A stretch of DNA of 64,000 bases from the NCBI RefSeq assembly GCF_029909975.1, contig NZ_CP094516.1, forward strand, positions 3,596,001-3,660,000, read 5' to 3'. The position numbers were made by a program, and so were the translations under genes. The stretch comes from Bradyrhizobium sp. ISRA430 (lineage in GTDB: Bacteria; Pseudomonadota; Alphaproteobacteria; Rhizobiales; Xanthobacteraceae). The notes under the pieces were generated by a model. The model saw only the letters and a program-made list of their open reading frames with translations, was not told the DNA's origin and made no database searches. Below are positions 1,123 through 36,546 of this stretch, one piece after another. Position 1 is the stretch's first letter, and each line of letters starts with the position of its first letter.

Positions 1123-3084
1123 TCAACTCCCGCCGACTGACGAACGTTCCCGCGTCGCCGCCTTCAAAGCCGCGAGATCGACGCGTGAGGCAATCCTGTC
1201 GAGCGCAACCGGCAGCCGCTGGCGCCAGTTCGGGTGCTCATCGATCGTGCCGGGAATGTTGGGCTGGTCGATCACGCCCAGCAGATCTTCCAGCGATACC
1301 GCCAACAGCCGCGACGGCGTGCGCGACAGGAAGGTGAGCACCGAATAGAGATCGTTGGCGTGAATGCCGTTGACGCGCAGGATCTCGTCGAGCATGCCGA
1401 GCGCATGCCAGCGCGCCTCGTCGTTCTCACCGGGGTCGATTCCGAGCGAAAGCTTCATCTTCAGATCGCTGAAGGAGCGCCAGCCGGCATAAGTGCAGAG
1501 ATCGTGCGTGTTCAGCGTGACCAGCGCGTTGGGCCTGTAATGATCGACGTTGCGAAAATGACCGGCGTCGTCGCGCTCGAACATCATGACGAGATAGGAC
1601 CAGATGCCCCAGTCCTGCATGGTCTCACGGAAGCCTTCCGGCACGGTGCCGAGATCCTCGCCGATCACGATGCATTTGTGCCGCGCGCTCTCGCGCGCCA
1701 CCGCCGCCAGCAGCGCCTCGAACGGCATCTGCACATAGGCACCATTGTCCGGCTTGAAGCCGCGCGGCACCAGATAGAGCCGCTTCAGGCCGAGCACGTG
1801 ATCGAGCCGGATCGCGCCGGCATGGCGCATCGAGGCGGCCAGCATCGCGGCAAACGGCACGAAGGACTGCGCTTCCAGGCCCCCCGCATTGAAGCCGGCA
1901 AGACCCCAGTCCTGGCCGACGGTGTTGAGCACGTCGGGTGGCGCGCCGACGGCGAGATGGCGGGAAATCGCCATCTGCTCGTTCCAGGCATCGAAGCCGT
2001 TGGACTGCACGCCGACGGCAACGTCGAGATAGAGCCCGACCTTCATGCCGAGCTGGGTCGCAAGCACCTTGGCCGCCTGCAATTGCGACTCGGCGGTCCA
2101 TTGCGCGAATTCGACGAACTCAACCTCGCGCTTATCGGGACCATTGCGCAACTCGGCGAGTTTCGTCTCATCCGGCTGCCGCCATTCCCGCGGCCATTCC
2201 CACCAGGGGCCGGCGAAGCGATGCCGCAGCACCTCGAAGCAGGCAAAGCGTGACAATAGCGGTGCGCGCTCGGAGCGGAATGCCGCAAACTCCTGCCGGC
2301 GCGTTTCGCTCGCCTTCTTCACAAAACTGTCAAAGGCGGCGCGCAGGCCCCGCCATTTCAACGTCGCCATGTCGGCGTAGGGCACGCGGTCGCCTTCGCG
2401 CAGGCGCGCGGCAATCGCGGCAGCATCCGGGAGCAGGTCGGACGAAAACTCGGGGATTTTTTCAACGTCGATATAGAGCGGATTGAGGAACAGCCGGCTG
2501 TTCGGCGAATAAGGGCTGCAATCGCTCGGATGGTCGTCGAACAACACATGCAGCGGATTGAGGCCGACGCCGTCGGCGCCAAGCTGCCGGGCAAGCCGGA
2601 CGAGACCGGCAAGATCGGTGAAATCGCCGATGCCCCAATTGCGATCGGAACGAACACTGTAGAGCTGCACCGCGAGCAGCCAGCCACGATCGAAGTCGCC
2701 CCCAAAGGCGCGCTCGGGGGCCACGATCATCGGCACTTCTTCCGTCGCGCCGTCAGCATCGGTCAGTGTCAACCGGTGATAACCGGCCGGCAGACCGGCC
2801 GGCCAAGCAATCACCGGCTCGCGCGTTTCGCCTTGCGCGATTACGTTGAAATTGCCGGTGATTTTCCATTGCAGCGGCAACGCGCCGGTTGCCGTCAGTT
2901 CGGTACGTGCATTCGCCAGGGCGCGAACCACGACCGGCCCATGGGCGAAGCGGTAGACACGCTTCTCCGGCAGGGCGTCGAGGATGGATTTCAAGGCGTC
3001 GGGCGCAGTGACCCGCAGCTTTCCCAGGGCGTCGATGAATTCGGACTGGACGCCCTTGATTTCGGCTTGAGCTAAAAGATCCAT
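1123..3084 (-). CDS. malQ: 4-alpha-glucanotransferase (amylomaltase)
   Basis: A GH77 disproportionating enzyme of 653 residues that transfers maltooligosyl units between alpha-1,4-glucans in the cytoplasm. The first 130 residues are the N-terminal domain common in bacterial MalQ; the barrel follows with NWGIGDFTDLAGLV near residue 149. The catalytic set is intact: nucleophile D428 in AIRLDHVLGLKR, acid/base E476 in CIVIGEDLGTVPEGFRETM, and D528 in NTHDLCTYAGW. It is transcribed away from the glgE-like/treS/glgB row, with GH15 downstream. Its role would be to recycle short maltooligosaccharides left by GlgX and TreY/TreZ. A possible EcfG-type promoter lies about 80 bases upstream. Length and motifs are normal for the family. 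Confidence 0.95.
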   Translation of the reverse strand: MDLLAQAEIKGVQSEFIDALGKLRVTAPDALKSILDALPEKRVYRFAHGPVVVRALANARTELTATGALPLQWKITGNFNVIAQGETREPVIAWPAGLPAGYHRLTLTDADGATEEVPMIVAPERAFGGDFDRGWLLAVQLYSVRSDRNWGIGDFTDLAGLVRLARQLGADGVGLNPLHVLFDDHPSDCSPYSPNSRLFLNPLYIDVEKIPEFSSDLLPDAAAIAARLREGDRVPYADMATLKWRGLRAAFDSFVKKASETRRQEFAAFRSERAPLLSRFACFEVLRHRFAGPWWEWPREWRQPDETKLAELRNGPDKREVEFVEFAQWTAESQLQAAKVLATQLGMKVGLYLDVAVGVQSNGFDAWNEQMAISRHLAVGAPPDVLNTVGQDWGLAGFNAGGLEAQSFVPFAAMLAASMRHAGAIRLDHVLGLKRLYLVPRGFKPDNGAYVQMPFEALLAAVARESARHKCIVIGEDLGTVPEGFRETMQDWGIWSYLVMMFERDDAGHFRNVDHYRPNALVTLNTHDLCTYAGWRSFSDLKMKLSLGIDPGENDEARWHALGMLDEILRVNGIHANDLYSVLTFLSRTPSRLLAVSLEDLLGVIDQPNIPGTIDEHPNWRQRLPVALDRIASRVDLAALKAATRERSSVGGS

Positions 3085-3289: not shown

Positions 3290-5236
3290 GTGAACAAGAC
3301 AATTCAAACCGTCGAGAGCGCCGCAGCCCGCAGCGCTTTCCTCATTGAGGACGTCTATCCGTTGATCGACGGGGGCCGCTTCGCCGTGAAGCGGATCGCG
3401 GGCGAGCGGGTCGAGGTCTGGGCCGACATCTACCGCGACGGCGACGCCGTGATCAGCGCCGCGCTGGTCTGGCGCCGCGAGCAGGATCGCGACTGGCGGC
3501 ACGAGCCGATGAGCCAGCACGGCAACGACCGTTGGTTCGGCGCGTTCGTCCCGACGGAGCCCGGGCTGTATCTCTATGCCGTCCAAGCCTGGACCGACGA
3601 ATTCGCCACCTGGCGTCATCGGCTGGAGCGGAAGCAGCTTTGCGGCGCCGACATCACGCTCGACGCGATCGAGGGCGCCGGCCTTCTGACCAAGGCGCAT
3701 GGCGTGCGGCGGGACGCCGCCTCGATCATCCTGAGACAATGCGAGGACTATCTTCAGACCGGCGAGGTCGCGCCGCTGCTCGCGGCCGAGCTGAGCGAGG
3801 CCATGGCCGAGAGCCAGTCGCGCCCCGACCTGACCCGCTCCCCGCTCTTCCCGCTGAGCGCCGAACGTGACAAGGCGCGGTTCAGCACCTGGTACCAGAT
3901 GATGCCGCGCAGCCAGAGCGCTGTGCCCGGTCGGCACGGCACGCTCAGGGACTGCATCGCGCGCGTGCCTGACATCGCCGCGATGGGATTTGACGTGCTC
4001 TACTTCACGCCGATTCACCCGATCGGCCGCACGCGGCGCAAGGGCCGCAACAATTCCCCGATCGCGACCGAACACGATCCCGGCTCGCCCTATGCCATCG
4101 GCGCTCCCGAGGGCGGGCATGATGCCCTGCATCCCGCGCTCGGCACGATCGAGGATTTCCGGGCGCTGATCGCAACTTGCCTCGAATATGGCGTGGAGCT
4201 CGCGCTCGATTTCGCGGTGCAATGCTCGCCGGATCATCCCTGGCTGAGGCAGCATCCGGAATGGTTCAAATGGCGGCCGGACCGCTCGGTGGGCACCGCG
4301 GAGGGCCCCTATCCCGATATCGTCATCCCCGACTTCGCCTGCGTCGACAGAATCGCGCTGTGGGGCGCGTTCCGCGATGCAATGCTGTTCTGGATCGATC
4401 ATGGTGTGACCATTTTCGCCATCGACAATCACGACACCGCGCCGCTCCCGTTCTGGGACTGGCTCATCCGCGACATCCGTCGCCGGCACCCCGAGGTCAT
4501 CCTGTTCGCAAAGACATTCACCCGACCGAAGCTGATGAAGGGGCTCGCAAAGCTCGGCTTCGCGCAGTCCTTCACCTACTTTCCCTGGCGCACCCAGAAG
4601 TGGGAGCTGGAGCAATATCTCGGCGAGCTCGTCAATTACCCGGAGCGGGATTTCTATCGCCCGAACCTGTTCGTCAACACACCTGACCTGTTGCCATATC
4701 ATCTGCAGAACGGTGAGACCTGGATGTTCAAGTCGCGCGTTGCGCTGGCAGCGACGCTGTCGGGCAATTATGGCATTTACAGCGGGTTCGAGCTCCTGGA
4801 ACACGGCGCCATTCCCGGCCGGGAGGAGTATCTCGATTCCGAGAAATACGAGATCCGGCAGCGCGACTGGAACCAACCCGGCAACATCAAGAGCTATATC
4901 GCCGAGCTCAATCGCATCCGCAGCGAAAACACCGCCCTTCAACAGACGGCCAATCTGCGGTTCCTCGGCATCGAGGACGGCGAAACGGTCGCGTTCGTGA
5001 AGCAGGCGGGTGATCCGGCCAGCACCGTCGTGGTAGTGGTCGCCCTCTCGCGCCGTGTGCGCGAATTCTGGCTGCCGCTGGGCGACGTCACGGTTGACGC
5101 CGGTGGGCAGCGGCACCACGTTGCGGTCCTCGAAAACCTCCTGACAGGCGAACAGTCCCGCATTGAATGGGGCGGGATCAGGTTGCGTATCGATCCTGAC
5201 CTTGATCCGGCGCTGCTGTTTCGCTGCCTGGCGTAG
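3290..5236 (+). CDS. GlgE-like maltosyltransferase homologue lacking catalytic residues
   Basis: 648 residues, GTG start, aligning over its whole length with GlgE (GH13_3; maltose-1-phosphate to alpha-1,4-glucan maltosyl transfer). Family marks kept are PIHPIGRT near 241, NNS at 254-256, the Asp-Asn of the nucleophile (IDN, D379-N380), TYFPWRTQKWELEQYL after 429, FVNTPD (D466) and EEYLDSEKYEIRQRDW. But the general acid/base Glu (E in SEAF/AEAF of known GlgE) is Lys408 (codon AAG at 4511-4513). The near-invariant Arg two residues before the nucleophile is Ala377. PHTK after the nucleophile is HDTA. The AENPPKKYQD loop that binds the donor phosphate is shortened to AEGPYPD (337-343). By sequence this should not act as a normal GlgE; a regulatory, glucan-binding or altered-substrate role is inference. 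First gene of the rightward operon, 11 bases before treS-mak. Confidence 0.85.
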   Translation: MNKTIQTVESAAARSAFLIEDVYPLIDGGRFAVKRIAGERVEVWADIYRDGDAVISAALVWRREQDRDWRHEPMSQHGNDRWFGAFVPTEPGLYLYAVQAWTDEFATWRHRLERKQLCGADITLDAIEGAGLLTKAHGVRRDAASIILRQCEDYLQTGEVAPLLAAELSEAMAESQSRPDLTRSPLFPLSAERDKARFSTWYQMMPRSQSAVPGRHGTLRDCIARVPDIAAMGFDVLYFTPIHPIGRTRRKGRNNSPIATEHDPGSPYAIGAPEGGHDALHPALGTIEDFRALIATCLEYGVELALDFAVQCSPDHPWLRQHPEWFKWRPDRSVGTAEGPYPDIVIPDFACVDRIALWGAFRDAMLFWIDHGVTIFAIDNHDTAPLPFWDWLIRDIRRRHPEVILFAKTFTRPKLMKGLAKLGFAQSFTYFPWRTQKWELEQYLGELVNYPERDFYRPNLFVNTPDLLPYHLQNGETWMFKSRVALAATLSGNYGIYSGFELLEHGAIPGREEYLDSEKYEIRQRDWNQPGNIKSYIAELNRIRSENTALQQTANLRFLGIEDGETVAFVKQAGDPASTVVVVVALSRRVREFWLPLGDVTVDAGGQRHHVAVLENLLTGEQSRIEWGGIRLRIDPDLDPALLFRCLA

Positions 5237-5247
5237 GGGCGCACGCC

Positions 5248-8200
5248 ATGAATGTTCTTTCCTCCGTCGACGTCAACAAGAAGATGGAAGCTGCCGAGAT
5301 CGTGGACGAGCTCTGGTACAAGGATGCCATCATCTATCAGCTCCACGTCAAGGCGTTCGCCGACAGCAACAATGACGGCATCGGCGACTTCACCGGGCTG
5401 ACCGAGAAACTGCCCTATCTCCAGGAGCTTGGCGTCACTGCACTGTGGCTACTGCCGTTCTATCCCTCGCCCGGCCGTGACGACGGCTACGACATCGCGG
5501 ACTACGGCGCGGTCAATCCCGATTTCGGGACGATGAAGGATTTCAAGCGTTTCATCCAGGAAGCGAAGCGGCGCGGCCTGCGGGTGATCACCGAGCTCGT
5601 CGTCAACCACACCTCCGACCAACACAAATGGTTCAAGCGCGCACGACGCAGCCATCCGGGCTCGAGCGCGCGGAACTGGTATGTCTGGAGCGACACCGAC
5701 CAGAAGTACCAGGGCACGCGGATCATCTTCACGGACACGGAGAAATCCAACTGGACCTGGGACACCGAGGCAGGCGCCTTCTACTGGCATCGCTTCTTCT
5801 CGCATCAGCCGGATCTCAACTTCGACAATCCGCGCGTGGTCAGCGCCATCATCCAGGTGATGAAGCGCTGGCTCGATGCCGGCGTCGACGGCTTCCGGCT
5901 TGATGCCATTCCCTATCTCTGCGAGCGCGAGGGCACTTCGAACGAGAACCTTCCCGAGACGCATACGATCATCAAGCGTCTGCGCCATGAGCTGGACGCC
6001 TACTCCAAGGGCAAGCTGCTGCTGGCCGAGGCCAATCAATGGCCCGAGGACGTGCAGGAATATTTCGGCCGCGGCGACGAGTGCCACATGGCCTATCACT
6101 TCCCGCTGATGCCGCGCATCTACATGGCCATCGCGCAGGAGGACCGCTTCCCGATCACCGACATCCTGCGTCAGACGCCGGACATTCCCGCGAGCTGTCA
6201 ATGGGCACTGTTCCTGCGCAACCATGACGAGCTGACGCTGGAAATGGTCACCGACGTCGAGCGCGACTATCTGTGGTCGACCTATGCCAACGATCCGCGC
6301 GCGCGCATCAATCTCGGCATCCGCCGGCGCCTGGCGCCGCTGATGGACAACGACCGGCGCAAGATCGAGCTGATGAACTCGCTGCTATTGTCCTTCCCCG
6401 GCACCCCGATCATCTATTACGGCGACGAGATCGGAATGGGCGACAACATCTATCTCGGCGACCGCAACGGCGTGCGCACGCCGATGCAGTGGAGCCCGGA
6501 CCGCAATGGCGGCTTCTCGCGCTGCGATCCCGCACGCCTCTACGCGCCGCTGATCATGGATCCCGTCTACGGCTACGAGTCGGTCAATGTGGAAGCGCAG
6601 TCGCGCAGCCTGTCGTCACTGCTCAGCGCCACCAAGCGGCTGATCTCGGTGCGCAAGTCGACGCTCGCCTTCGGTCGCGGCACCATGACATTCATCCGCC
6701 CCGCCAACCGCGCAGTGCTCGCCTATGTCAGGCAGTATCGCGACGAGGTGATCCTCTGCGTCGCAAATCTTTCGCGCGCAGCCCAAGCGACCGAGCTCGA
6801 CCTGTCACCGTGGAAGGACCGCATCCCGCAGGAAATGCTCGGCCGTACCCGCTTCCCGGCGATCGGCGAACTACCCTACATGATCACGCTCGGGCCTTAC
6901 GGCTTCTACTGGTTCCAGCTCCTGGAGCGCGACAAATCCGAGGCGGTGGTGCCGCGCGCGGTGCCGGAATTCGAAACGCTGGTGGTACCGGTCAACTCGA
7001 CCTGGGTCTCGCTGGCACGCGAACGCAGCGTGTTCGAGCGCGACGTCCTGCCGGGCTTTTTGTCGCGGACGCGGTGGTATCCGGAGCATAACCCCAAGCA
7101 GATCCGGCCTACGCTGACTTCGGCGGTGCCGTTCTGCGACATCGGTGACAACCGACCCTGGATCGCGTTCTTCGAGGCCACACAGCACGACACGTCTTCG
7201 CGTTACGTGCTGCCCATGCAGATCGAGTGGGTGCGCTTCGACCGCGAACGCTTCAACCCGAGGGCGCTCGCCGCCGTCCGCCAGGGCGCGCGCGAAGGCA
7301 CACTGCTCGACGTGGCCACCGACCAGATCTTCATCGGCCTGTTCCTGCGCAACCTGTCGCAGAATCTGGTGGTGGAGGAGAACAATCTGCGGCTGGAGTT
7401 CAAGTCGACCAGCCTGTTCGCCGACTACACAGTCAAGGAACCCGAACGCATCCGTACGATCGAGCAGTCGAACAGCACCGCCCTCGTCGACAACCAGTAT
7501 GTCGCCAAGATCTACCGCCAGCTCGAAAGCGGCATCAATCCCGAGATCGAGATCAACCGCTATCTGACCGAGGTCGCCCGCTTTGCCAACACGCCGGCAC
7601 TGCTCGGCAGCGTCGAGCTGGTCGAAGGCGATCAGCGCAGCGCGCTCGGCGTCCTGCACGCCTATGTCGAGAACCAGGGCGACGGCTGGGCCGTGACCGC
7701 ATCCCATCTCGACCGCTATATCGACGAGCAGCGTCTGCTGACGGCGAGCCAGATGTCCCACGACAGCCAGGAGCCTGCGTCCTACCTGCACCACCTGGTG
7801 CAGACCGGCCGGCGCCTCGCCGAGCTGCATATGGCGCTGGCTGACGCAAAGACCGGCGACCTTGCTCCCGAGCCGATCGACGCCATGCAGGTCAAGCACT
7901 GGATCTCCGATCTCAAGACCCGCGCCGACCGGCTTTGCGAGCTCCTGGCCGAGCATCGCGAGGCCCTCCGAGAGGCCGACCGCCCGCTGGTCGACCAGCT
8001 CGCGGCGGCGCGCGCGAACCTGTCCGACCGGCTGACGACGCTATTGCCATCGGACCTCAGCGGGTTGAACATCCGTCATCATGGCGACTTCCGCCTCGGG
8101 CAAACTCTGATCGTGAAGGACGATATCTTCATCATCGACTTCGATGGCAATCCGTACCTGCCGCTGGCCGACCGGCGGCGCAAGGCGCCAGCCGCGCGCG

Positions 8201-8544
8201 ACGTCGCCGGCCTGATCCGCTCGATCGAGCTTGCCGCAACCGCAGCCCTCCACCGCGCGCTCGCCGGGGCGCACGACGAGCAGGGCCGGCTTGCAGCCGC
8301 GCTCGGCGAATGGCGCGAGCGCGCGACAGCCACATTCCTGACCGCCTATCGGGAAGGCATGACAAACCGGCAGCTCTGGCCAAATGATCCGCAATCGGCG
8401 GACAGCCTGTTAAGGTTTTTCATACTTGATCACGCATTCGATGAGGTGGAGCATGAGCTGTCGCACCGGCCGGAGGGGCTCAACACACCTCTGACGGGGC
8501 TGCTTCGCATTCTGTCCAATCCCGAGAGCGAAGCACATGCCTAA
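5248..8544 (+). CDS. treS: Trehalose synthase fused to maltokinase
   Basis: A 1098-residue fusion. Residues 1 to about 550 are TreS (GH13), which interconverts maltose and trehalose: nucleophile D219 in [13 protein letters not shown], acid/base E261 in [14 protein letters not shown], and D327 in [15 protein letters not shown]. From about 600 to the end is maltokinase (Mak/Pep2), which makes maltose 1-phosphate from maltose and ATP. Its kinase core has [20 protein letters not shown], then HGDFRLGQ (945-952, catalytic D947) and IIDFDGNP (962-969). Compared with HGDLHLGQ and IDFEGEP in known Mak, His is Arg, Glu is Asp, and the second Glu is Asn. The fusion is common in proteobacteria. It overlaps the start of glgB by 8 bases, so the two are translationally coupled. 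Its usual partner GlgE, directly upstream, looks inactive, which leaves the fate of any maltose 1-phosphate unclear. Confidence 0.95.
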
Positions 8545-10684
8545 ACTGCCCGCCGAAGCCTACGCGATCATCGAGGGCCGCCACTCCGACCCCTTCCACT
8601 ATCTTGGACTGCACCCCGAAGGCGACAGAAGCGTGGTGCGCGCCTTCCTGCCCGAGGCCTCCAATGTCGAGGCGATCGGCGAGCACGGCGAGGTGGCAAA
8701 GCTCGACCGCGTTCACGACGCCGGCCTGTTCGTCGGTGCCCTCCCGAACGGCTCCAGGCATTATCAATTGCGCGCGAAGTTCGGCGACAGCGTCGTCGAG
8801 TTCGAGGACGCCTATCGCTTCCCGCCGATCCTGACCGACTTCGACCTCTACCTGCTCGGCGAAGGCACCCATCAGCGCCTCTACGACAAGCTCGGCGCGC
8901 ATCCGATGACGCTCGACGGCGTTGACGGCATCGGCTTCGTGGTGCTGGCCCCGAATGCGCGGCGCGTCAGCGTGGTCGGCGATTTCAATTTCTGGGACGC
9001 GCGGCGTCATCCCATGCGGGTGCGCGGCATCGGCTATTGGGAATTGTTCATTCCGCACGCCAAGCCGGGAGATCACTACAAGTTCGACATCGTCGGACCG
9101 CACGGCCACCAACTCCCGCTGAAATCCGATCCGCTGGCGTTCGCCACCGAGGTCCGGCCAAAGACGGCTTCCATCGTCTTCGACGAGGCGCATCTGCCGC
9201 GGCCGCGCCCGGCGCCCGACGGCATCAACGCGCTGTCGGCGCCGATGTCGATCTACGAGGTCCATCTCGGCTCCTGGCGGCGCAAGAACGGCAATGAATG
9301 GCTGACCTATCGCGAGCTGGCCGAACAGTTGCCGGCCTATGTCCGCGACATGGGCTTCACGCATGTCGAATTCCTCCCCGTGAGCGAGCATCCCTTCGAC
9401 GGCTCCTGGGGCTACCAGCCAACCGGCCTCTATGCACCGACCAGCCGGTTCGGCTCCCCGGACGACTTTGCCGCCCTCGTCGATGCCTGCCATCGCGAAG
9501 GCATCGCCGTGCTGCTCGACTGGGTGCCCGGCCACTTCCCCGACGATCCGCACGGGCTCGGCCATTTCGACGGCACCTCGCTCTACGAGCATGCCAATCC
9601 GCTTCAGGGCCGGCATCTCGACTGGGGCACGCTGATCTACAATTACGGCCGCACTGAAGTGATGAACTTCCTGGTGTCGAACGCGCTGTTCTGGCTGGAG
9701 CGCTACGCCATCGACGGCCTGCGCGTCGATGCGGTCGCCTCCATGCTCTACCTCGACTACAGCCGGCCGCCGGGCGCCTGGATTCCGAACCAGTATGGCG
9801 GGCGGGAAAACATAGAGGCGATCGCGTTCCTGCGCCGCTTCAACACCGAAGTGTTCGCCCGTTTCCCGCAGGCGACCACGGCGGCGGAGGAATCGACCGC
9901 ATGGCCACAGGTCTCGCGCCCGGTCGAATTCGGCGGGCTCGGCTTCGGCTACAAGTGGAACATGGGCTGGATGCACGACACGCTGAACTACATCAGCAAG
10001 GACCCGATCTACCGCAAGCATCATCACGGCGAGATCCTGTTCGGCCTGCACTATGCCTTCTCGGAGAACTTCATCCTGCCGCTGTCGCATGACGAGGTGG
10101 TGCACGGCAAGCGTTCGATCCTCGGCCGGATGCCCGGCGACGAGTGGCAGCGCTTTGCCAATCTGCGCACCTATTACAGCTTCATGTTCGGCCATCCCGG
10201 CAAGAAGCTCTTGTTCATGGGCGCGGAGATCGCACAAGGCAACGAATGGAATCACGACCAGTCGCTCGACTGGCATCTGCTCGAATACAAGAACCATTCC
10301 GGCATCCAGGCGCTGATCCGCGATCTCAACCGGCTCTATCGCGCGGTGCCGGCGCTGCACCAGATGGATTGCGACCAGGCCGGCTTCGAATGGCTGATCA
10401 CCGACGATGCCAACCGCAACACCTTCGCCTGGATGCGCAAGGGATTCGACGAACACTCGCGCTGTCTCGTGATCGTCAACTTCTCACCCAATGTCTATCG
10501 CAACTATCGCGTTCGCGTGCCGTTTGCCGGCAAGTGGAAAGAGGTGTTCAATTCGGACTCCGCCCATTACGGCGGCAGCAATGTCGGGAACGTCGGCGAG
10601 GTGCTCGCCGTTGACGGCAAGACGCCCGAGCTTCGCCTCACCATTCCGCCCCTGGCCGCGATCTTCCTCGTTCCGGAAAGCTGA
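8537..10684 (+). CDS. glgB: 1,4-alpha-glucan branching enzyme
   Basis: GH13 branching enzyme of 715 residues with the expected layout: N-terminal domains up to about 230 (including a CBM48-type domain with [20 protein letters not shown]), the barrel from IYEVHLGSW, and a C-terminal beta domain. The catalytic residues are nucleophile D398 in [11 protein letters not shown], Glu451/452 in AAEESTAWP, and D519 in [14 protein letters not shown]. It adds alpha-1,6 branches to linear glucan in the cytoplasm. The start overlaps the end of treS-mak, and glgX follows after 3 bases, so the genes form one transcription unit. No glgA or glgC is present in this window. Confidence 0.96.
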
Positions 10685-10687
10685 CCC

Positions 10688-12766
10688 ATGCGCCTGACCG
10701 CCGGATCGTCCGCACGCCTCGGTGCAAGCTGGGACGGACGCGGCACCAATTTCGCGCTGTTCTCCGCCAACGCGCAGAAGGTCGAGCTGTGCCTGTTTGA
10801 CAGCCAGGGCCGCCGCGAGCTCGAGCGCATCGAATTGCCAGAACGCACCGAGGACGTCTGGCACGGCTATCTCAATGACGTTTCGCCGGGCCAGCTCTAC
10901 GGCTATCGCGTGCACGGACCCTACGAGCCCGAGCACGGCCACCGCTTCAACGCCAACAAGCTGCTGCTCGACCCCTATGCCAAGCGGCTCGCCGGACGCC
11001 TGGTCTGGAGCGACGCGCATTTCGCCTACCGCACCGGCAGCCCGCGCTGGGACCTGTCCTTCGACCGCCGCGACAACGCGCGCGGCATGCCCAAGGCGGT
11101 CGTAGTCGACGAGACCTTTAACTGGGGCCGTCGCGAGAGCAGGCCTCACATCGCCTGGGAAGACACCGTCATCTACGAGGCTCACGTCAAAGGCCTGACG
11201 CAGAAGCGCGACGACGTGCCGCCGAACCTGCGCGGTACCTATGGCGGCCTGTCGTCGCCCGCGATGATCGAGCACTTGAAGCGGCTCGGCGTCACCACGG
11301 TCGAGTTGCTGCCGATCCACAGCTTCGTCGACGATCGTATCCTGGTGGAGAAGAAGCTCGCCAATTACTGGGGCTACAACACGCTGTCCTTCTTCGCGCC
11401 CGAGTCCCGCTACGCCCAGGACAATGCGCTCGACTCCTTCCGCACCACGGTCGCGCGCCTGCACGATGCCGGCATCGAGGTGATGCTCGACGTCGTCTAC
11501 AATCACACCGCGGAAGGCAATCATCTGGGGCCGACGCTGTGCTACCGCGGCATCGACAACGCCTCCTATTACTGGCTGAACCGCGAGAATCCGCGCTACT
11601 ACGACGACTTCACCGGCTGCGGCTCGTCGGTGAACATCACCCATCCGCGCGTACTTCAGATGGTGATGGATTCGCTGCGCTACTGGGTCGAGGTCTGCCA
11701 TGTCGACGGCTTCCGCTTCGACCTCGCCACCACGCTGGCGCGCGGCCCGAACGGCTATGATCGCGGCAGCTCGTTCCTGACCGCCATCCGGCAGGATCCG
11801 GTGCTAGCCACCGTCAAGCTCGTGGCCGAGCCCTGGGACCTCGGGCTCGGCGGCTACCAGGTCGGTGCATTCCCCTCGCAATGGTCGGAGTGGAACGACC
11901 GCTATCGCAGCGCCATGCGCCGCTACTGGAGTGGTGAAGGCAGCCTGATCGGCGACATCTCCAGCCGCATGACGGCGTCCTCCGACCTGTTCAACCACGA
12001 CGGACGGCGGCTGCGCGCCAGCATCAATCACATCACTGTCCACGACGGCTTCACGCTCGCCGACCTCTTCAGCTACAATGAGAAGCACAACGAGGCCAAT
12101 GGCGAGGACAATCGCGACGGCTCCAACGACAACCACAGCAACAATTGCGGTGTTGAAGGCCCGACCGACGATCCCAATATCCTCGGTCTGCGCCGCCAGC
12201 TCCGCAAGAACGTGCTGGCCTGCCTGATGTTGGCGCAGGGCGTGCCGCTGATCCTCGCCGGCGACGAGGTCGGCAACTCGCAATCCGGTAACAACAACGC
12301 CTATTGCCAGGACAACGAGATCGGCTGGATCGGCTGGGACAATCTCGGCAAGGAAGGCGAGGACATGGTCGATTTCGTCGCCCATCTTGCCGAAATCCGC
12401 CGGCGCTTCTCGCAGCTCCGCAGCCACCGCTGGCTCGATGGCCGTCCCACGGAGGGCTCATCCTATGGGGTCTTGTGGCTCACCCCGGCCGGCGAGGAGA
12501 TGAAGGAGAGCGACTGGAATTTCCCCGAAGGGCGCTTCCTCTCTTATGTGATGGGGCCGATGGAACCGGGCGGGCCTGCGATCTTTATTGTCCTGAACGC
12601 CGCGCCCGAAGAGATCGCATTCAAGTTGCCCAAGATGACCGAACACAAGAGCTGGCAGCAGATCCTGAACACGACTGAGGCCAAGCTGAACACGATCGAA
12701 TTCCAGCCCGGAAGCGACAGTAAGGCGCCGCCGCGCTCCGTGGTCGCCTTCGCGGGCGCGCTATGA
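10688..12766 (+). CDS. glgX: Glycogen debranching enzyme (isoamylase type)
   Basis: GH13_11 enzyme of 692 residues that hydrolyses alpha-1,6 branches of glycogen. It begins with a CBM48-like domain (GASWDGRGTNFALFSANAQK) followed by the catalytic barrel. Catalytic residues seen are D345 in DGFRFDLATTLAR, E381 in LVAEPWDLGLGGYQVG and D453 in ITVHDGFTLADLFSYNEKHN, the last followed by the NGEDNRDG stretch typical of GlgX/TreX. The stop overlaps the treZ start as ATGA. In this operon it would supply linear chains to TreY, as TreX does in archaea and actinobacteria. Length and motifs are ordinary. Confidence 0.95.
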   Translation: MRLTAGSSARLGASWDGRGTNFALFSANAQKVELCLFDSQGRRELERIELPERTEDVWHGYLNDVSPGQLYGYRVHGPYEPEHGHRFNANKLLLDPYAKRLAGRLVWSDAHFAYRTGSPRWDLSFDRRDNARGMPKAVVVDETFNWGRRESRPHIAWEDTVIYEAHVKGLTQKRDDVPPNLRGTYGGLSSPAMIEHLKRLGVTTVELLPIHSFVDDRILVEKKLANYWGYNTLSFFAPESRYAQDNALDSFRTTVARLHDAGIEVMLDVVYNHTAEGNHLGPTLCYRGIDNASYYWLNRENPRYYDDFTGCGSSVNITHPRVLQMVMDSLRYWVEVCHVDGFRFDLATTLARGPNGYDRGSSFLTAIRQDPVLATVKLVAEPWDLGLGGYQVGAFPSQWSEWNDRYRSAMRRYWSGEGSLIGDISSRMTASSDLFNHDGRRLRASINHITVHDGFTLADLFSYNEKHNEANGEDNRDGSNDNHSNNCGVEGPTDDPNILGLRRQLRKNVLACLMLAQGVPLILAGDEVGNSQSGNNNAYCQDNEIGWIGWDNLGKEGEDMVDFVAHLAEIRRRFSQLRSHRWLDGRPTEGSSYGVLWLTPAGEEMKESDWNFPEGRFLSYVMGPMEPGGPAIFIVLNAAPEEIAFKLPKMTEHKSWQQILNTTEAKLNTIEFQPGSDSKAPPRSVVAFAGAL

Positions 12767-14517
12767 GGCCCTCCTTCGGTGCAAGATCGACCAAAGACGG
12801 CGTGTCGTTCCGGCTCTGGGCGCCCGCCGCCAGACGCGTCGACCTCCTGCTCGACCGCCGACATGCCATGCGCCGGCGCGACGACGGCTGGTACGTGGCC
12901 GAGGTCCACGGCCTGACGGCCGGCAGCCGCTACAAATTCAGGATCGACGACGAGATCGACGTGCCCGATCCGGCCTCGGCCTTCCAGCCCGAGGACGTGT
13001 TCGGCCCGAGTGAGGTGATCGATCACGCAAGCTTCGCCTGGCGCGCAGATGCTTGGCGCGGCCGCCCTTGGGAAGAGACGGTCCTGATCGAGACCCATGT
13101 CGGCACCTTCACGCCGCGAGGCACTTACCGTGCCATGATCGACAAGCTCGATCATCTGGCCGGCACCGGCGTCACCGCGCTGGAGTTGATGCCGCTGGCC
13201 GATTTCGCCGGCCGCCGGGGCTGGGGCTACGACGGCGTGCTCTGGTACGCGCCCGACAGCGCCTACGGCCGCCCCGAAGACCTGAAGACGCTGATCGACG
13301 AGGCGCATCTGCGCGGCCTCATGGTGTTTCTCGATGTCGTCTATAATCACTTCGGCCCCGAGGGAAATTACCTCAGCCGCTACGCGCCGACCTTCTTCAC
13401 GGACGCGCACACGCCCTGGGGCAGCACGATCGACTATCGCGTGCCGCAGGTGCGGGCCTTCGCGGTCGAGAATGCGCTCGCCTGGCTCAGCGACTACCGT
13501 TTCGACGGCCTGAGGCTGGACGCCGCCAACCACATCATGGCGCTTCCCGGCGAGTCGTCGATGCTGCACGATCTCAGCGTCGCCACCGGCGAGCTCGCCA
13601 AGGCGACGGGGCGGCACATCCATCTCGTGCTGGAGAACGGCGACAACCGCGCGAGCCTGCTCGACGCCGCGCAGGAGCCGCCCAACGGCAAGTATCGCGC
13701 GCAGTGGAACGACGACTATCACCACGTCTGGCATGTGATGTTGACGGGGGAGCTCGCCGGCTACTACGCCGACTATCAGACGCCGCGCCTCGATCTTGCG
13801 CGCGCGCTGGCCTCGGGCTTCGTCTATCAGGGCGAGATCTCCGAATTCTGGGGCAACAAGCCGCGCGGCGAGCCGAGCGGCGCGCTGCCGCTGGCGACCT
13901 TCGTCAATTTCCTCCAGAACCATGACCAGATCGGCAACCGCCCGCTCGGCGACCGGCTCGAGAGCCTGGCATCGCCGCAAAAGGTCGAGGCCGCGCTCGC
14001 CGTCACGCTTCTCGCTCCCATGATACCAATGCTGTTCATGGGCGAGGAATGGGGCTCGACGGTGCCCTTCCCGTTCTTCTGCGATTTCCAGGGCGGGCTT
14101 GCAGATGCCGTGCGCAAGGGACGTCGGCAGGAATATGCCTGGGCTTACGAAAAATATGGCGACGAGGTCCCAGACCCGCTCGACCCAGCAACGCCGCAAT
14201 CGGCCGTGCTCGACTGGACGTCGCGCACGCCCGAGCAGCAGGCACGACTGGCTCTGGTGCGGGAGCTGCTCGCGCTTCGCCGCAGGGAGATCGCACCACG
14301 GCTGAAGGGCGCGGTCTTCGGCAACGCCGAGACCACCGACAATGGTCTTTTGACCGCACATTGGCGCATGGGGGACGGCGCGATGCTGCGCCTCACCGCC
14401 AATCTCTCGGACCACGAGATCACGCATTCCAGCGAGAGCGCAGGCACACCGATCTGGGGCAGTGCAGCCGGCGACCGCCTCCCGCCCTGGGCAGTGCACT
14501 GGCGTCTCGGAGGTTAG
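12763..14517 (+). CDS. treZ: Malto-oligosyltrehalose trehalohydrolase
   Basis: 584-residue GH13_10 enzyme that releases trehalose from maltooligosyl-trehalose, the second step of the TreY/TreZ route. The N-terminal domain begins FGARSTKDGVSFRLWAPAAR; the barrel has WGYDGVLWYAPDSAYG, nucleophile D253 in FDGLRLDAANHIM, acid/base E291 in HLVLENGDNRAS, and the conserved QNHDQIGNRPLGDRL. The ATG overlaps the glgX stop (ATGA), and treY starts one base after the TAG. The tail (SAAGDRLPPWAVHWRL) is normal. Cytoplasmic; no signal sequence. Confidence 0.95.
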   Translation: MRPSFGARSTKDGVSFRLWAPAARRVDLLLDRRHAMRRRDDGWYVAEVHGLTAGSRYKFRIDDEIDVPDPASAFQPEDVFGPSEVIDHASFAWRADAWRGRPWEETVLIETHVGTFTPRGTYRAMIDKLDHLAGTGVTALELMPLADFAGRRGWGYDGVLWYAPDSAYGRPEDLKTLIDEAHLRGLMVFLDVVYNHFGPEGNYLSRYAPTFFTDAHTPWGSTIDYRVPQVRAFAVENALAWLSDYRFDGLRLDAANHIMALPGESSMLHDLSVATGELAKATGRHIHLVLENGDNRASLLDAAQEPPNGKYRAQWNDDYHHVWHVMLTGELAGYYADYQTPRLDLARALASGFVYQGEISEFWGNKPRGEPSGALPLATFVNFLQNHDQIGNRPLGDRLESLASPQKVEAALAVTLLAPMIPMLFMGEEWGSTVPFPFFCDFQGGLADAVRKGRRQEYAWAYEKYGDEVPDPLDPATPQSAVLDWTSRTPEQQARLALVRELLALRRREIAPRLKGAVFGNAETTDNGLLTAHWRMGDGAMLRLTANLSDHEITHSSESAGTPIWGSAAGDRLPPWAVHWRLGG

Positions 14518-14518
14518 C

Positions 14519-17302
<2,784 letters not shown>

Positions 17303-21937: not shown

Positions 21938-22627
21938 TCAGTCCCCCGCCTTCAACCGATACCCGATCCCCGTCTCTGTCAGCACGTATTGCGGACGCTC
22001 CGGGTCGGCTTCGATCTTCTGCCGGAGCTGACGGACATAGACGCGCAGGTATTGTGCATCGGTCAGCTCGTCCCAGAGCTCCTTAAGGAGAAGGCGATGG
22101 GTGAGCACCTTGCCGGCGTGCTGGACCAGCACGCGCAGGAGGTCGTACTCCTTCGGTGACAGCTTCACCTCGCGCTCGCCCAGCTTGACGATGCGGCGCA
22201 CGAGATCGACGGAGAGATCGCCGGTGCGGAACACCGGGCGCTCGCCCTTGACCTGGAGCTGGTGGCGCAGCGCCGCACGCAGGCGCGCCAAGAGCTCGTC
22301 CATGCCGAACGGCTTCGTAAGGTAGTCATCGGCGCCGAGATCGAGCGCCTGCACCTTGCCGGCCTCGTCGCCGCGGCTCGACAGCACCACGATCGGAACG
22401 TCCTCATTGCGGGCGCGAATGGTGCGCAACAGCTCGTGGCCCTGGATGTCGGGCAGGCCGAGGTCGAGGATGATCAACGCCGGCCCTTCAGTGAGCTTTT
22501 CCAGCGCGATTTTCCCGTTCGATGCCTCCAATATCTCATAGCCCTGCGTCGCAAGCCCCATCCGCAGCAATTTACGGATCGGCGGCTCGTCGTCGATGAC
22601 CAGGACCTTGATCGAGGCAGCACTCAT
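21938..22627 (-). CDS. kdpE: Two-component response regulator KdpE
   Basis: 229-residue OmpR-type regulator. The receiver domain (1-120) has acidic residues at IDDEPP, phospho-acceptor D55 in LIILDLGLPD and Lys in LTKPF; the winged-helix DNA-binding domain starts near 135 (SPKEYDLLRVLVQHAGKVL ... YVRQLRQKIE ... ETGIGYRL). KdpE activates the kdpFABC genes when KdpD senses K+ limitation or osmotic stress. Its start overlaps the end of kdpD by 4 bases, giving translational coupling. Last gene of the leftward kdp transcript. Confidence 0.96.
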   Translation of the reverse strand: MSAASIKVLVIDDEPPIRKLLRMGLATQGYEILEASNGKIALEKLTEGPALIILDLGLPDIQGHELLRTIRARNEDVPIVVLSSRGDEAGKVQALDLGADDYLTKPFGMDELLARLRAALRHQLQVKGERPVFRTGDLSVDLVRRIVKLGEREVKLSPKEYDLLRVLVQHAGKVLTHRLLLKELWDELTDAQYLRVYVRQLRQKIEADPERPQYVLTETGIGYRLKAGD

Positions 22628-25347
22628 GCGGCGGTATCCAATGCGTGGGCCTGTGCCGGAACAGGCAGACGGATGGTCAGGACGGCGCCGCTCCGGTCGC
22701 TGCGGTTGGCGGCCGAGATCGTGCCGCGCATCGCCTCGACGAAGCCGCGTGAGATGGCCAGGCCAAGCCCGGTGCCGGGACGGACATGATCCCCCTTCTG
22801 CACGCGATAGAACTTGTCGAATACACTCTCGAGCTCGTCGGGCGGGATGCCGGCGCCTTCGTCGGCGACCTGGAGGAGCACCTGATCCGTGTCGCGTTGG
22901 CTCCTGATCAAGATCGTGGTGTCCTGTGGCGAATATTTGGCTGCATTATCGAGCAGGTTGAACAGCACCTGCTCGAACAGCACCGCGTCGAGCTCGAGCA
23001 TCGGCAGATCGGCGGCCAGCAGCAGCTCGACTTTGTGCCCGGTGAGGATCTTGGCTGCCCGCCGCAGCGCACTGCCGACGATCTCGCCGAGATCGTGCAG
23101 CGCCGTGTTGGGCACGATGGCGCCGGATTCGAGCTTGGTCATGTCGAGGAGGTTGGCGATGAAGCGGTTGAGCCGCTCGGACTCGTCGATCACGGTGGCG
23201 AGCAGATCGCGCTTCTCGGTGGCGGAGAGCGCGCCGGCGAGATCGCGCATGGTCGAGGCCGCGCCCAGCACCGAGGCGAGCGGTGTCTTGAGATCATGCG
23301 AGATCGAGGTTAAGAGCGCCGAGCGCAGCCGCTCGGACTCGATGGTGCGCTTGACCCGGTCCATATCCTCGACCAGCAGCACGCGCTCGATCGCGAGCGC
23401 GCCCTGGTCGACCAGCGCGTCGAGCAGCCGACGCTGGTCCGGCGTCAGCAGCGGGCCGGTGCGGTCGTCGTCGATGCCGATGACGCCGATCGGCGCGCGC
23501 CCGGTGCGCATCGGCAGGAACAGCCGCCTGGCGCCCGGCAGCGTATCGGAGCCGCGGCCGGCGGGACGGTCGTTGCTCCAGGCCCAGTTGGCCGCCGCCA
23601 GATCGGCCTGGTCGAGCTGATCCTCGGGCGGATAGCCGGATTTCACCGCGAGCAGACCATCCTCCGGCAGCAGCAGCACCACGCGCACCTTCAGCATCAG
23701 CGCAGTCTGGTAGGCGGTGGCCCACAACACGTCGTCGAGCGTGCCGGTGCCGGCGAGCTTGCGGCTGAAGGCATAGAGCTGCTCGGTCGTCCTGATCCGC
23801 CCGATCGCGGTGTCGGCCTGCGTACGCACCCGTCCCGCAACGTTCGATACCAGCACCGCAATCAGCATGAAGAAGAAAAATGCCGCAACATTGGTCGGAT
23901 CGGTGATGGTGAAAGTGTAGACCGGCGGCAGGAAGAAGAAATTATAGGCGAGCGAGGCCGCGATGCTCGCCAGCAGCGACGGCCACAGGCCGTAGCGCAC
24001 AGCGACCGCCACCACCGCGGTCAGGAACACCAGGTCTACGTTTTCGACTCCAAACCGCGGCTTGATGACAGCCGCCACGGCAAGGCCGAGCGCAGTGATG
24101 CCAAGTGCCTTGAGATAGGGCAGCGCTTCGAATTGCTCGACGCGCGCCGCGGTCTGCACCGCCGTTTTCGGCGCGGGCCCGCCGGCGAGCTCGTCGCCCG
24201 GAATGACGTGAACGCTGATGTTGCCGGCTCGGCGGACGAGATCATGCACGACGGAGCCGCGCGTCATCTCGAACCAGCGCGAGCGCGTCGACTTGCCGAT
24301 CACGATCTGGGTGACGTTGTTGCTTTGCGCGAAGTTGATGACGTCGTCCGCGATGCGACGGCCGACGGCGGGAATGGTCAGCGCCTCGCCACCCAGCGAT
24401 TCGGCAAGCCGAAGCGTATCTGCCAGCCGGTCGCGCTCCTCGTCGGCGAGCTGCAGCGAGCGCCGGGTCTCGATCGAGATGGCGGTGAACGGCGCGTGCA
24501 GCCGGTCGGCCAGCCGCTTGGTGTAGCGCACGAGCCCGGCTGCGCGCGGATCCTCGCTGACGCAGACGAGGATGCGCTCGCCCGCAGCCCAGGGGCCAGC
24601 GATGGCATTCGCCTGCATGTGGGTGAGCAACTGCTCATCGACCCGCTCGGCCGTGCGCCGCAGCGCCAGCTCGCGCAGCGCAGTCAGGTTGCCCGGCGAG
24701 AAGTAATGCTCCAGCGCCCGCTCGGCCTGTTTGGGCACATAAACCTTGCCTTCCTTCAGCCGCTGGATCAGGTCGTCAGGCGTGAGGTCGATCAGCTCGA
24801 TCGCGTCCGCACGGTCGAACACCGAATCCGGCACCGTCTCGCGCACCCGCACATGGGTGATCTGGGCAACGACGTCGTTCAGGCTCTCGATGTGCTGGAT
24901 GTTGACGGCGGTGTAGACATCGATGCCGTGGGACAGCAGCTCCTCGACATCGAGGTAGCGCTTGGGATGACGGCTTCCGGCCGCATTCGTATGGGCGAGC
25001 TCGTCGACCAAAGCGAGCTGCGGCCGTCGCGCGATAACGGCGTCGAGGTCCATCTCCTCGATCATCTGGCCGCGATAGTCGAGCGTCTTGCGCGGGATCA
25101 CCTCAAGCCCGCGCAGCAGCGTCTCGGTCTCGGCGCGGCCATGGGTCTCGACGAAGCCGACCACGACGTCGATGCCCGCCTTGCGCTTGGTGTGGGCGCT
25201 CTGCAGCATCTCGTAGGTCTTGCCGACGCCGGGGGCGGCGCCGACGAAGATCTTCAGCTTGCCGCTCGCGCTCTCCTCGCGGCGCGCGGTTTCCAGCAGC
25301 GCCTCGGGCGAAGGACGTTGTTCGGGATCACGGCGCTCTCGGACCAT
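22624..25347 (-). CDS. kdpD: Sensor histidine kinase KdpD
   Basis: 907 residues from ATG 25347 (MVRERRDPEQRPSPEALL). Domains: N-terminal KdpD sensor with Walker A GAAPGVGKT at 36-44 and DELAHTNAAGSRHPKRYLDV; a USP-like domain with VIGKSTRSRWFE; about four membrane helices around 430-530 (GLWPSLLASIAASLAYNFFF); a GAF domain; then the histidine kinase with H684 in SISHDLKTPLASVLG and ATPase motifs DNAAKYSP and GTGLGLAISRGF. It senses K+ status and phosphorylates KdpE. The frame stays open to 25488, but that extension runs through a REP palindrome and is unlikely to be translated. Overlaps kdpE. Confidence 0.94.
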   Translation of the reverse strand: MVRERRDPEQRPSPEALLETARREESASGKLKIFVGAAPGVGKTYEMLQSAHTKRKAGIDVVVGFVETHGRAETETLLRGLEVIPRKTLDYRGQMIEEMDLDAVIARRPQLALVDELAHTNAAGSRHPKRYLDVEELLSHGIDVYTAVNIQHIESLNDVVAQITHVRVRETVPDSVFDRADAIELIDLTPDDLIQRLKEGKVYVPKQAERALEHYFSPGNLTALRELALRRTAERVDEQLLTHMQANAIAGPWAAGERILVCVSEDPRAAGLVRYTKRLADRLHAPFTAISIETRRSLQLADEERDRLADTLRLAESLGGEALTIPAVGRRIADDVINFAQSNNVTQIVIGKSTRSRWFEMTRGSVVHDLVRRAGNISVHVIPGDELAGGPAPKTAVQTAARVEQFEALPYLKALGITALGLAVAAVIKPRFGVENVDLVFLTAVVAVAVRYGLWPSLLASIAASLAYNFFFLPPVYTFTITDPTNVAAFFFFMLIAVLVSNVAGRVRTQADTAIGRIRTTEQLYAFSRKLAGTGTLDDVLWATAYQTALMLKVRVVLLLPEDGLLAVKSGYPPEDQLDQADLAAANWAWSNDRPAGRGSDTLPGARRLFLPMRTGRAPIGVIGIDDDRTGPLLTPDQRRLLDALVDQGALAIERVLLVEDMDRVKRTIESERLRSALLTSISHDLKTPLASVLGAASTMRDLAGALSATEKRDLLATVIDESERLNRFIANLLDMTKLESGAIVPNTALHDLGEIVGSALRRAAKILTGHKVELLLAADLPMLELDAVLFEQVLFNLLDNAAKYSPQDTTILIRSQRDTDQVLLQVADEGAGIPPDELESVFDKFYRVQKGDHVRPGTGLGLAISRGFVEAMRGTISAANRSDRSGAVLTIRLPVPAQAHALDTAA

Positions 25348-25393
25348 CAGGCGGCTTGCTATCAAATTACCAGTGCGCCCGCTCATCCCACCC

Positions 25394-25415
25394 CTCTCCC
25401 CGCAAGCGGGGAGAG
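25394..25415. repeat. REP-like palindrome (CTCTCCCCGC / GCGGGGAGAG)
   Basis: Perfect 10-bp arms around AA, between kdpC and kdpD. This is a common Bradyrhizobium intergenic palindrome. It lies just before the kdpD start and could form a strong hairpin in the kdp mRNA. Confidence 0.8.
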
Positions 25416-25471
25416 AGAGCAACGGGCATCGCCTAGAATTATAATCATCAGAGCACCGCGAGCCTAGACCA

Positions 25472-26077
25472 CTACTTCGCGGCAGCACGATCCAGTGAGA
25501 GATTCAGCGCCAGTACGTTGACCCGGGGCTCGCCGATCAGGCCGAGCAGGCGGCCCTCGGTGTGGGACGTCACGAGCTGCGTGACCTGATCCTCGGACAT
25601 ATTCCGCGCCTTCGCCACGCGCGGCACCTGGAATTGCGCCGCTTCCGGCGAAATGTTCGGATCGAGCCCGCTGGCGGAAGTCGTCACCAGGTCGACCGGC
25701 ACAGCAGCCTTCGGGTTCTCCGCCTTCAGCTTCGCCACATCTTCCTTCAGCCGGTCGGCCAGCGCCTTGCTGGTCGGGCCGAGGTTGGAGCCGCCCGAAT
25801 TGGCAGCGTTGTAGGGCGCTGGCACCGTCTTGGTCGCATCGTTCGGGTCCGGCGCCAGCGTCGCCGAAGGGCGGCCATGGAAATATTTGTCGTCCTTGAA
25901 CTTCTGCCCGATCAGGGCGGAGCCGACCACCTTGCCGTCCTTCTCGATCAGGCTGCCCCGCGCCTGCGCGGGAAAGAGCGCGCTGGCGATGCCGGTGATC
26001 GCGAGCGGATAGGCGAGGCCCGTGATGGCGGTCAGCGCCAGCAAGAGGACGATGGCGGGGCGGATTTCTCTGAGCAT
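25472..26077 (-). CDS. kdpC: Potassium-transporting ATPase subunit KdpC
   Basis: 201 residues. One N-terminal membrane helix ([23 protein letters not shown]) is followed by a periplasmic domain with [38 protein letters not shown] and [21 protein letters not shown], all family signatures. KdpC stabilises the KdpFABC complex and influences ATP affinity of KdpB. The ATG at 26077 has GGGAGAG upstream and begins [10 protein letters not shown], the usual start. Upstream of it a REP palindrome separates it from kdpB. Confidence 0.96.
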
Positions 26078-26097
26078 GATGTCTCTCCCAATTCTTT

Positions 26098-26184
26098 CGT
26101 CATTGCGAGCGAAGCGAAGCAATCCAGAAATCTCTCCGGTGGCGGCAGTCTGGATTGCTTCGTCGCTTCGCTCCTCGCAATGAC
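26098..26184. repeat. REP-like long palindrome, family A, copy 2, inside the kdp operon
   Basis: Left arm CGTCATTGCGAGCGAAGCGA plus AGCAATCCAGA, right arm TCTGGATTGCTTCG(TCG)CTTCGCTCC plus TCGCAATGAC. Same family as 21766-21845. It fills the kdpB-kdpC gap, ending 3 bases before the kdpB stop codon. Confidence 0.85.
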
Positions 26185-26187
26185 AGT

Positions 26188-28305
<2,118 letters not shown>

Positions 28306-28329
28306 GGAGGTCACTCCGAAAGAGCTGGC

Positions 28330-30033: not shown

Positions 30034-30038
30034 GGAAA

Positions 30039-30143
30039 TCAACCCTTCAGGCTTGGTGCCCGGCATAGCAACGGCAGCAGCACCGCGAGCAGGCAGGCGA
30101 CGAGCACGGCATCCGCCAGCAACAATTTCACGACGAGCAGCAC
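30039..30143 (-). CDS. Possible 34-aa membrane peptide between kdpF and kdpA
   Basis: A 34-codon frame (GTG at 30143, TGA at 30041-30039) translates as one long hydrophobic stretch: [20 protein letters not shown], then [10 protein letters not shown] and a short basic tail. It begins two bases after the kdpF stop and ends five bases before the kdpA ATG, so it fills the gap exactly. No strong ribosome-binding site is seen, and it could be expressed by coupling to kdpF. No family recognised. It may be a chance frame in high-GC DNA. Confidence 0.35.
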
Positions 30144-36524: not shown

Positions 36525-36546
36525 GACGTGACTCCTCCCCGGCTCG

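Follow-up and report, generated by a model that had tools for sequence, protein, structure and literature searches.

The window analysed here, a stretch of 64,000 nucleotides from Bradyrhizobium sp. ISRA430, encodes a full-length homologue of GlgE whose catalytic centre has been remodelled and which, judging from the residues replaced, has very likely lost the old reaction, the making of glucan from maltose 1-phosphate (M1P). Next to it lies a treS-mak fusion gene whose maltokinase (Mak) half is also lesioned, and the coupling of this lesion to the change in GlgE appears to be a new observation. On balance, the explanation we favour is that the M1P branch has been abandoned and that GlgE has been kept as a non-catalytic, probably glucan-binding pseudoenzyme. 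The case is built on sequence comparison, which shows that the substitutions arose once and became fixed, that lesions in Mak go with them and that the gene is under selection. The features of the locus are as follows (window coordinates, strand, description):

1123..3084, − strand: malQ, divergent from glgE
3290..5236, + strand: GlgE homologue with remodelled catalytic centre (K408 type), 648 aa, GTG start
4040..4087, + strand: −2 subsite residues K251, N255 and S266, retained (residue roles from the part of PMC4526890 available)
4298..4318, + strand: donor (phosphate) loop AEGPYPD, residues 337-343, replacing AENPPKKYQD in the sequence alignment
4316 and 4844-4849, + strand: further −2 subsite residues retained, D343 and K519/Y520, respectively
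4418..4441, + strand: A377-I-D379-N-H381-D382-T-A384, with the catalytic Arg replaced by Ala, the nucleophile Asp kept and PHTK replaced by HDTA
4511..4513, + strand: Lys408, in the place of the acid/base Glu (E423 of S. coelicolor)
4685..4687, + strand: Asp466 (D480 of S. coelicolor), retained
5248..8544, + strand: treS-mak fusion, 1098 aa, TreS half with intact catalytic motifs and Mak half with a lesioned maltose site (TIGR02456, 909 bits; TIGR02457, 605 bits)
8092..8151, + strand: Mak lesions R949 (His307), D966 (Glu324) and N968 (Glu326), with D947 (Asp305) and D964 (Asp322) retained
8431..8478, + strand: Mak lesions H1062 (Lys413), D1065 (Tyr416), H1069 (Tyr420) and G1077 (Trp) (mutagenesis in the part of PMC4306142 available)
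8537..10684, + strand: glgB, branching enzyme, same operon
10688..12766, + strand: glgX, debranching enzyme
12763..14517, + strand: treZ
14462..17302, + strand: treY

Elsewhere the window holds the KdpD sensor kinase gene, the KdpB and KdpA potassium pump genes and flgK (22624-30066 and 34749-36581, − strand).

GlgE is known as an alpha-1,4-glucan:maltose-1-phosphate maltosyltransferase of family GH13_3, as in S. coelicolor GlgEI (3zss) and the mycobacterial enzymes (4u33, 5cgm). The window protein is homologous to these and keeps their fold, the N/S domain included; the structure model used was computed from 89 sequences (pLDDT 88), an earlier model from 29 sequences (pLDDT 60) having been discarded. 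It differs from them in lacking the acid/base Glu and the catalytic Arg, in its shortened loop, in having HDTA for PHTK and in its lesioned partner kinase. The open reading frame described in the earlier note is real, and the residues which that note had read, namely a kept nucleophile D379 with K408 for Glu, A377 for Arg and HDTA for PHTK, were all confirmed by the alignment to S. coelicolor GlgEI on which the numbering is based. In this alignment Arg392 corresponds to Ala377 (codon 4418-4420), Glu423 to Lys408 (codon 4511-4513) and PHTK 396-399 to HDTA 381-384, while Asp394, Asp480, Gln324 and Asn395 are unchanged as D379, D466, Q311 and N380. The donor loop is indeed shortened as the note had claimed, by deletion of Lys355 and Lys356, but the letters it gave are those of the canonical loop; in the window protein Asn352 has become Gly339, Tyr357 is kept as Tyr341 and Asp359 is also retained. 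The −2 residues Lys264, Asn268, Ser279, Asp359, Lys534 and Tyr535 are all present.

The catalytic trio is therefore incomplete, with Asp379 and Asp466 present and Lys408 in place of Glu. In the available part of PMC5076824, Glu423 of GlgEI is described as the acid/base, mutation of which abolishes activity. The phosphate ligands, given together with the −2 contacts in the part of PMC4526890 available, are N395, K355, N352 and Y357, and this pocket is likewise incomplete in the window protein, N352 being replaced by Gly and K355 deleted, with Y357 and N395 present. The acceptor His397 has also gone, and the Arg that precedes the nucleophile invariantly in GH13 is replaced, by Ala in 207 of 210 K-type sequences (interrupted or short rows of <600 aa being excluded from this count of unique sequences). 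On the alignment, the donor site thus has its maltose-holding half intact and its phosphate-holding and proton-shuttling half gone. The protein is related to an active enzyme but has lost catalytic residues, as the term pseudoenzyme implies. A search for a second, intact glgE, advised in the earlier note, gave no other GlgE match in the 8.56-Mb genome.

The distribution of this form was examined in 117 genomes of the genus, 94 of which gave a match. The Lys408 form (K type) was found in 60, a canonical GlgE at 67-70% identity in 15, a GlgE with an altered donor loop (EHPPQRWDD) in 11, a canonical 60% GlgE at another locus in four (in G110 in two pieces), a degenerate GlgE in one (L065) and no GlgE in 26, the matches in three of these being weak and of amylase type. 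Direct reading showed Lys408 in 60/60 K-type genomes of the lineage, with open frames in 59/60, so that a sequencing or assembly error at 4418-4513, which the earlier note had named as a threat to its reading, is ruled out. In one K-type genome, G078 (L066), glgE and treS-mak are both interrupted, either by real decay or by assembly error. Among the best 80 of 277 named loci, a set biased to near relatives and overlapping with the genus genomes so that the counts are not independent, 78 were K type, under 28 species names (e.g. japonicum, diazoefficiens, yuanmingense and liaoningense). DNA exactly matching a pattern for FAxDNHD(S/T)AP, by which some K types are missed, was present in 52 of 391 family genomes, all of them in this genus out of 47, and the best 120 outgroup GlgE sequences listed were all canonical at nine sites, including the Arg.

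As the K type is defined by Lys408, its occurrence in 210/210 sequences is true by definition; independently of the definition, every K type is ≥73.7% and every other Bradyrhizobium GlgE compared ≤73.1% identical to the window protein. The earlier note had raised the case of active relatives with the same Lys and Ala, and every relative read from outside the clade (≤73.1% identical) was found to have Arg and Glu. In a 66-row tree the 20 K-type rows formed one clade (100/100) on a long stem (0.16 changes per column), placed among the canonical Bradyrhizobium GlgE sequences next to L148/P0121 and P0120 (97/91, 100/99). By this tree the K type arose once, within canonical GlgE, and several origins are not needed. 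The nearest canonical neighbours (L148/P0119, 73% identical, with P0120 and P0121) have, unlike the window protein, canonical catalytic and phosphate residues, and the Mak of L148 is intact; operon and gene order at L148 are the same as at other canonical and K-type loci.

Other states of GlgE were seen within the genus. In a second Bradyrhizobium clade (L050-L060, 11 loci) GlgE retains Arg, Glu and PHTK (10/11), with the phosphate loop changed to AEHPPQRWDD (N352H, K355Q, Y357W), which looks like a parallel exit from M1P through other residues. In L065 (G083), GlgE has RADNPQAKP and a degenerate loop with Arg and Glu retained, and its Mak shows Ser136Arg, Tyr416Ala and other changes, an apparent further decay of both proteins as judged from their residues. 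Four genomes (L061-L064 in G054, G103, G052 and G110) carry glgE and mak in a cluster of their own, with a glgX on the opposite strand; it encodes the canonical 60% GlgE and an intact Mak, and in the same genomes glgE is missing from the main treS-mak locus, the Mak of which is lesioned.

The changes in the K type are not randomly placed. At 178 positions conserved in ≥95% of 23 canonical Bradyrhizobium and 24 outgroup GlgE sequences, the K-type majority residue differed at 23, and 13 of these lie within three residues of the −1, phosphate or catalytic residues (32 such conserved sites; 4.1 expected; hypergeometric P 7e-6). Near the −2 subsite only 1 of 21 conserved sites was changed, and five canonical subclades taken as a control had changed 5, 0, 0, 0 and 4 conserved sites. 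The statement of the earlier note that the changes cluster at the M1P site therefore stands, but not that all of them do, since 10 of the 23 lie elsewhere. When conservation was measured on 129 K-type sequences thinned to 95% identity, the new residue was 97-100% conserved at 13 of the 23 changed sites (Q203, V226, T296, A377, H381, D382, A384, L405, F406, K408, T409, F428 and P432) and in 46-91% only at the other 10. Positions of the donor site were ≥95% conserved within the K type in 13 of 16 cases vs 364/648 overall (P 0.03), compared with 16/16 in canonical GlgE. The nucleophile D379 is present in 207/210 unique sequences and 58/60 genomes and D466 in 210/210, with some variation at the −2 subsite (N255 in 195/210, S266 in 191/210). 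Taken together, these alignments show a new pocket that is altered yet constant at its core and somewhat relaxed in its surroundings.

The K-type sequences in which Asp379 is lost are L242 (G008; Val), L248 (G026, the same genome as L139; Ala), P0078 (Ala) and P0118 (Gly), all of which retain NHDTA and Lys408 despite this loss. Glu203Gln and Thr411Ala (window numbering), at two residues conserved in canonical GlgE, are found in the majority of K-type sequences and also in the majority of the altered-loop clade, and are thus parallel changes.

Over many species K-type GlgE is under purifying selection with its frame open: the pairwise dN/dS in a random sample of 45 K-type loci was 0.151, vs 0.124 for canonical GlgE. 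Relative to GlgB in the same genome pairs, the dN of GlgE was 2.52 in the K type vs 1.32 in canonical GlgE, and this faster rate, together with the varying N255 and S266 and the 10 less conserved changed sites, points to partial relaxation.

The earlier note had missed the lesion in the maltokinase half. According to the part of PMC4306142 available, Asp305 of Mak is the putative base, Asp322 binds magnesium, Ser136 and Asn137 belong to the phosphate loop and His307 lies in the proposed maltose pocket; mutants of Lys413, Tyr416 or Tyr420 are practically inactive, and at the equivalents of N137 and D322 activity is lost and at S136 drastically lowered. In 87/87 K-type loci Arg stands for His307 and Asp for Glu324, and Tyr416 has been lost; 80/87 have also lost Lys413, with Tyr420 retained in 82/87, Ser136 in 76/87 and Asn137 in 86/87. 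His307 to Arg and the loss of Tyr416 were seen in 60/60 K-type genomes of the genus (nine loci and the window plus 50 further genomes). With His, Asp and His for Lys413, Tyr416 and Tyr420, the window kinase does not have the residues of a maltokinase able to make M1P. It was nevertheless not taken to be simply dead, as D305, D322, K149 and mostly S136 and N137 remain and only the maltose side is lost; because these ATP-side residues are retained, K-type Mak could have a new substrate rather than none. In the altered-loop group the ATP side is hit, Ser136 being Pro in 11/11 and Asn137 His in 10/11.

Across the loci the states of the two proteins go together. For seven Mak residues taken from the literature (Lys413, Tyr416, Tyr420, N137, S136 and D322 plus the putative base D305), all were intact in 34/34 loci with canonical GlgE (17 + 4 + 13) and at least one was changed in 126/126 loci with an altered or absent GlgE (87 + 11 + 1 + 27), with two to four changed in 87/87 K-type loci and at least one in the other 39/39. 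A cross-table on a TreS+GlgB tree of 71 of the 160 loci (11 K-type representatives; 5/13 outgroup and 26/27 GlgE-less loci passing a length filter) gave 22 with both intact, 49 with both not and none mixed, for Mak residues that were partly chosen after the data had been seen, the seven-residue set being that of the paper. Relatedness explains much of this count, since only three independent co-changes lie on well-supported branches (sign test p 0.25, under-powered). In the 27 loci that lack glgE (L183-L209; the treS-mak locus read in 23 of the 26 GlgE-less genomes plus the four genomes with GlgE elsewhere), the operon is the same and TreS is 88-92% identical to that of L148, with Ser136 and Asn137 of Mak lost in 27/27, Asp305 in 4 and Asp322 in 3; the fused kinase is degenerate and seems to persist as a dead domain. 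Of 117 K-type loci, 115 have intact catalytic motifs in TreS, and the remaining two (L066 and L099) have interrupted treS-mak genes or misread frames.

In the explanation we favour, one Bradyrhizobium lineage would have dropped the M1P branch: the maltose site went from the Mak half of TreS-Mak, and from GlgE went the phosphate pocket, the catalytic Arg and the acid/base Glu. The operon and its surroundings still encode TreS, TreY, TreZ, GlgB, GlgX and MalQ, leaving trehalose, maltose and glucan interconvertible without M1P, and glycogen could be made through the glgC and glgA genes that adjoin each other elsewhere in the genome (3296376-3299026). Without a maltokinase the operon would yield no M1P, and GlgE without phosphate site, acid/base and Arg would be unable to use it. 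Loss of GlgE leads to M1P accumulation in other bacteria (PMC4526890, available part), as does deletion of glgE in P. aeruginosa (PMC8084333, available part), which may be why the GlgE and Mak steps change together. Purifying selection has retained the altered GlgE, in which the −2 maltose subsite, Asp379 and Asp466 are wholly or for the most part preserved and new near-fixed residues surround the −1 site (A377, H381, D382, A384, L405, F406, K408, F428 and P432); a protein kept intact in this way probably does another job. Most likely the old donor groove would hold the end of a maltosyl unit or an alpha-glucan, and the protein would bind glucan, act as a scaffold or sense glucan in partnership with the enzymes of the operon. 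A laboratory counterpart of this proposed state is E423A GlgEI of S. coelicolor, which has likewise lost the acid/base and in whose crystal malto-octaose was bound across the donor and acceptor sites (PMC5076824, available part); that mutant carries a single designed change, whereas in the window protein the Arg and two phosphate ligands are missing as well. With the kept −2 subsite, this makes an alpha-glucan-binding pseudoenzyme the simplest role by analogy. We infer the loss of the GlgE and Mak activities, glucan binding and the partner role of GlgE.

Two GlgA types were found in the genome (G000:C1:3297605-3299026 and 2678238-2679635). The higher-scoring type (E <1e-155) occurs in 58/60 K-type and 11/11 altered-loop genomes, and in 2/15 canonical-GlgE and 7/26 GlgE-less genomes, on a visual reading of the best E value for each genome. 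The second GlgA could give redundancy, but is confounded by relatedness and suggestive only as a cause of the change in GlgE.

Among the points that weigh against a non-catalytic, glucan-binding GlgE, D379 is kept more than a pure binder obviously needs (207/210; 58/60), and a GlgE-type partner is not needed across the genus, given that 26/117 genomes have none. In one rival reading the protein would be a new enzyme, whose pocket of D379, N380, H381, D382, K408 and D466 would catalyse a different reaction at the end of a glucan or maltosyl unit, the donor or leaving group being a different one, with Lys408 and His381/Asp382 perhaps as a new acid/base pair. Twelve new residues that are 97-100% conserved (Q203, T296, A377, H381, D382, A384, L405, F406, K408, T409, F428 and P432), D379 in 207/210 and D466 in 210/210, and a GlgE retained in 60/60 genomes of the lineage fit this reading, which we nonetheless hold to be unlikely: the nucleophile has been lost in three of 210 unique sequences and two of 60 genomes (Val, Ala), the rate relative to GlgB is raised and there is no candidate substrate. 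We know of no GH13 enzyme with Lys as acid/base. A more general proposal, put forward tentatively, is that a single conversion of GlgE in the common ancestor of the lineage of Bradyrhizobium japonicum type gave it a charge-swapped centre and a new, selected function on an alpha-glucan or maltosyl end, as a reaction or as a sensor or scaffold of glycogen state, with its partner kinase re-tooled in the same lineage. The alternatives left by the earlier note, a maintained pseudoenzyme or an enzyme with a new reaction, are what the evidence allows, and one origin, 59/60 open frames, a dN/dS of 0.15 and the near-fixed residues speak for maintenance; the Mak lesion in turn makes loss of the M1P branch likelier than a new reaction that uses the same donor.

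The raised rate also suits slow decay, by which M1P synthesis would have been lost first and GlgE would be a functionless remnant held by folding constraints or operon polar effects. Mak lesioned in all 60 genomes, a GlgE absent from 26/117 genus genomes, a GlgE dN relative to GlgB about twice canonical and parallel damage in two other lineages (the altered-loop loci L050-L060; L065) are consistent with such decay. A decaying protein that is not fused to another would be expected to drift and break, whereas 59/60 frames are open at a dN/dS of 0.15, 13 new residues are near-fixed across a lineage diverged to 74% identity and the −2 subsite has changed less than the −1 site, so that we regard a mere remnant as rather improbable. 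Least credible is a working GlgE with its acid/base replaced by Lys408 or a neighbour, which would be in keeping with the retained nucleophile, Asp480 equivalent and −2 subsite; the acid/base, the catalytic Arg, two of the four phosphate ligands and the acceptor His397 are all gone, and all genomes read from the lineage have lesions in the kinase that makes M1P.

Pseudoenzymes of GH13 are known in rBAT and 4F2hc, the heavy chains of amino-acid transporters, which keep the amylase fold without catalysis; they differ from the window GlgE in being animal membrane proteins with an unrelated role and partners. No description of a GlgE pseudoenzyme or of the change in Bradyrhizobium GlgE was found in the full-text literature searched, a coverage that most subscription journals fall outside, and the part of a 2024 review available contains neither 'rhizob' nor 'Bradyrhizobium'.

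Since the defining catalytic and phosphate features have failed, the window GlgE should not be filed as a maltosyltransferase. Several such proteins bear the database names of maltosyltransferases or starch synthases (among the best 120 of 8000 proteins, a set biased to near relatives), and models of trehalose and glycogen metabolism in soybean symbionts that rely on GlgE would therefore be wrong. GlgE is studied as a tuberculosis drug target, since blocking it poisons cells with M1P; Bradyrhizobium shows an exit from the pathway in which GlgE and the kinase that makes its substrate have been altered together and a 'dead' GlgE has been kept in one lineage. As the genus holds canonical, loop-altered, Lys-type and absent states of GlgE side by side, the order of loss, the toxicity rule and a non-catalytic role for an amylase fold become testable with close relatives.
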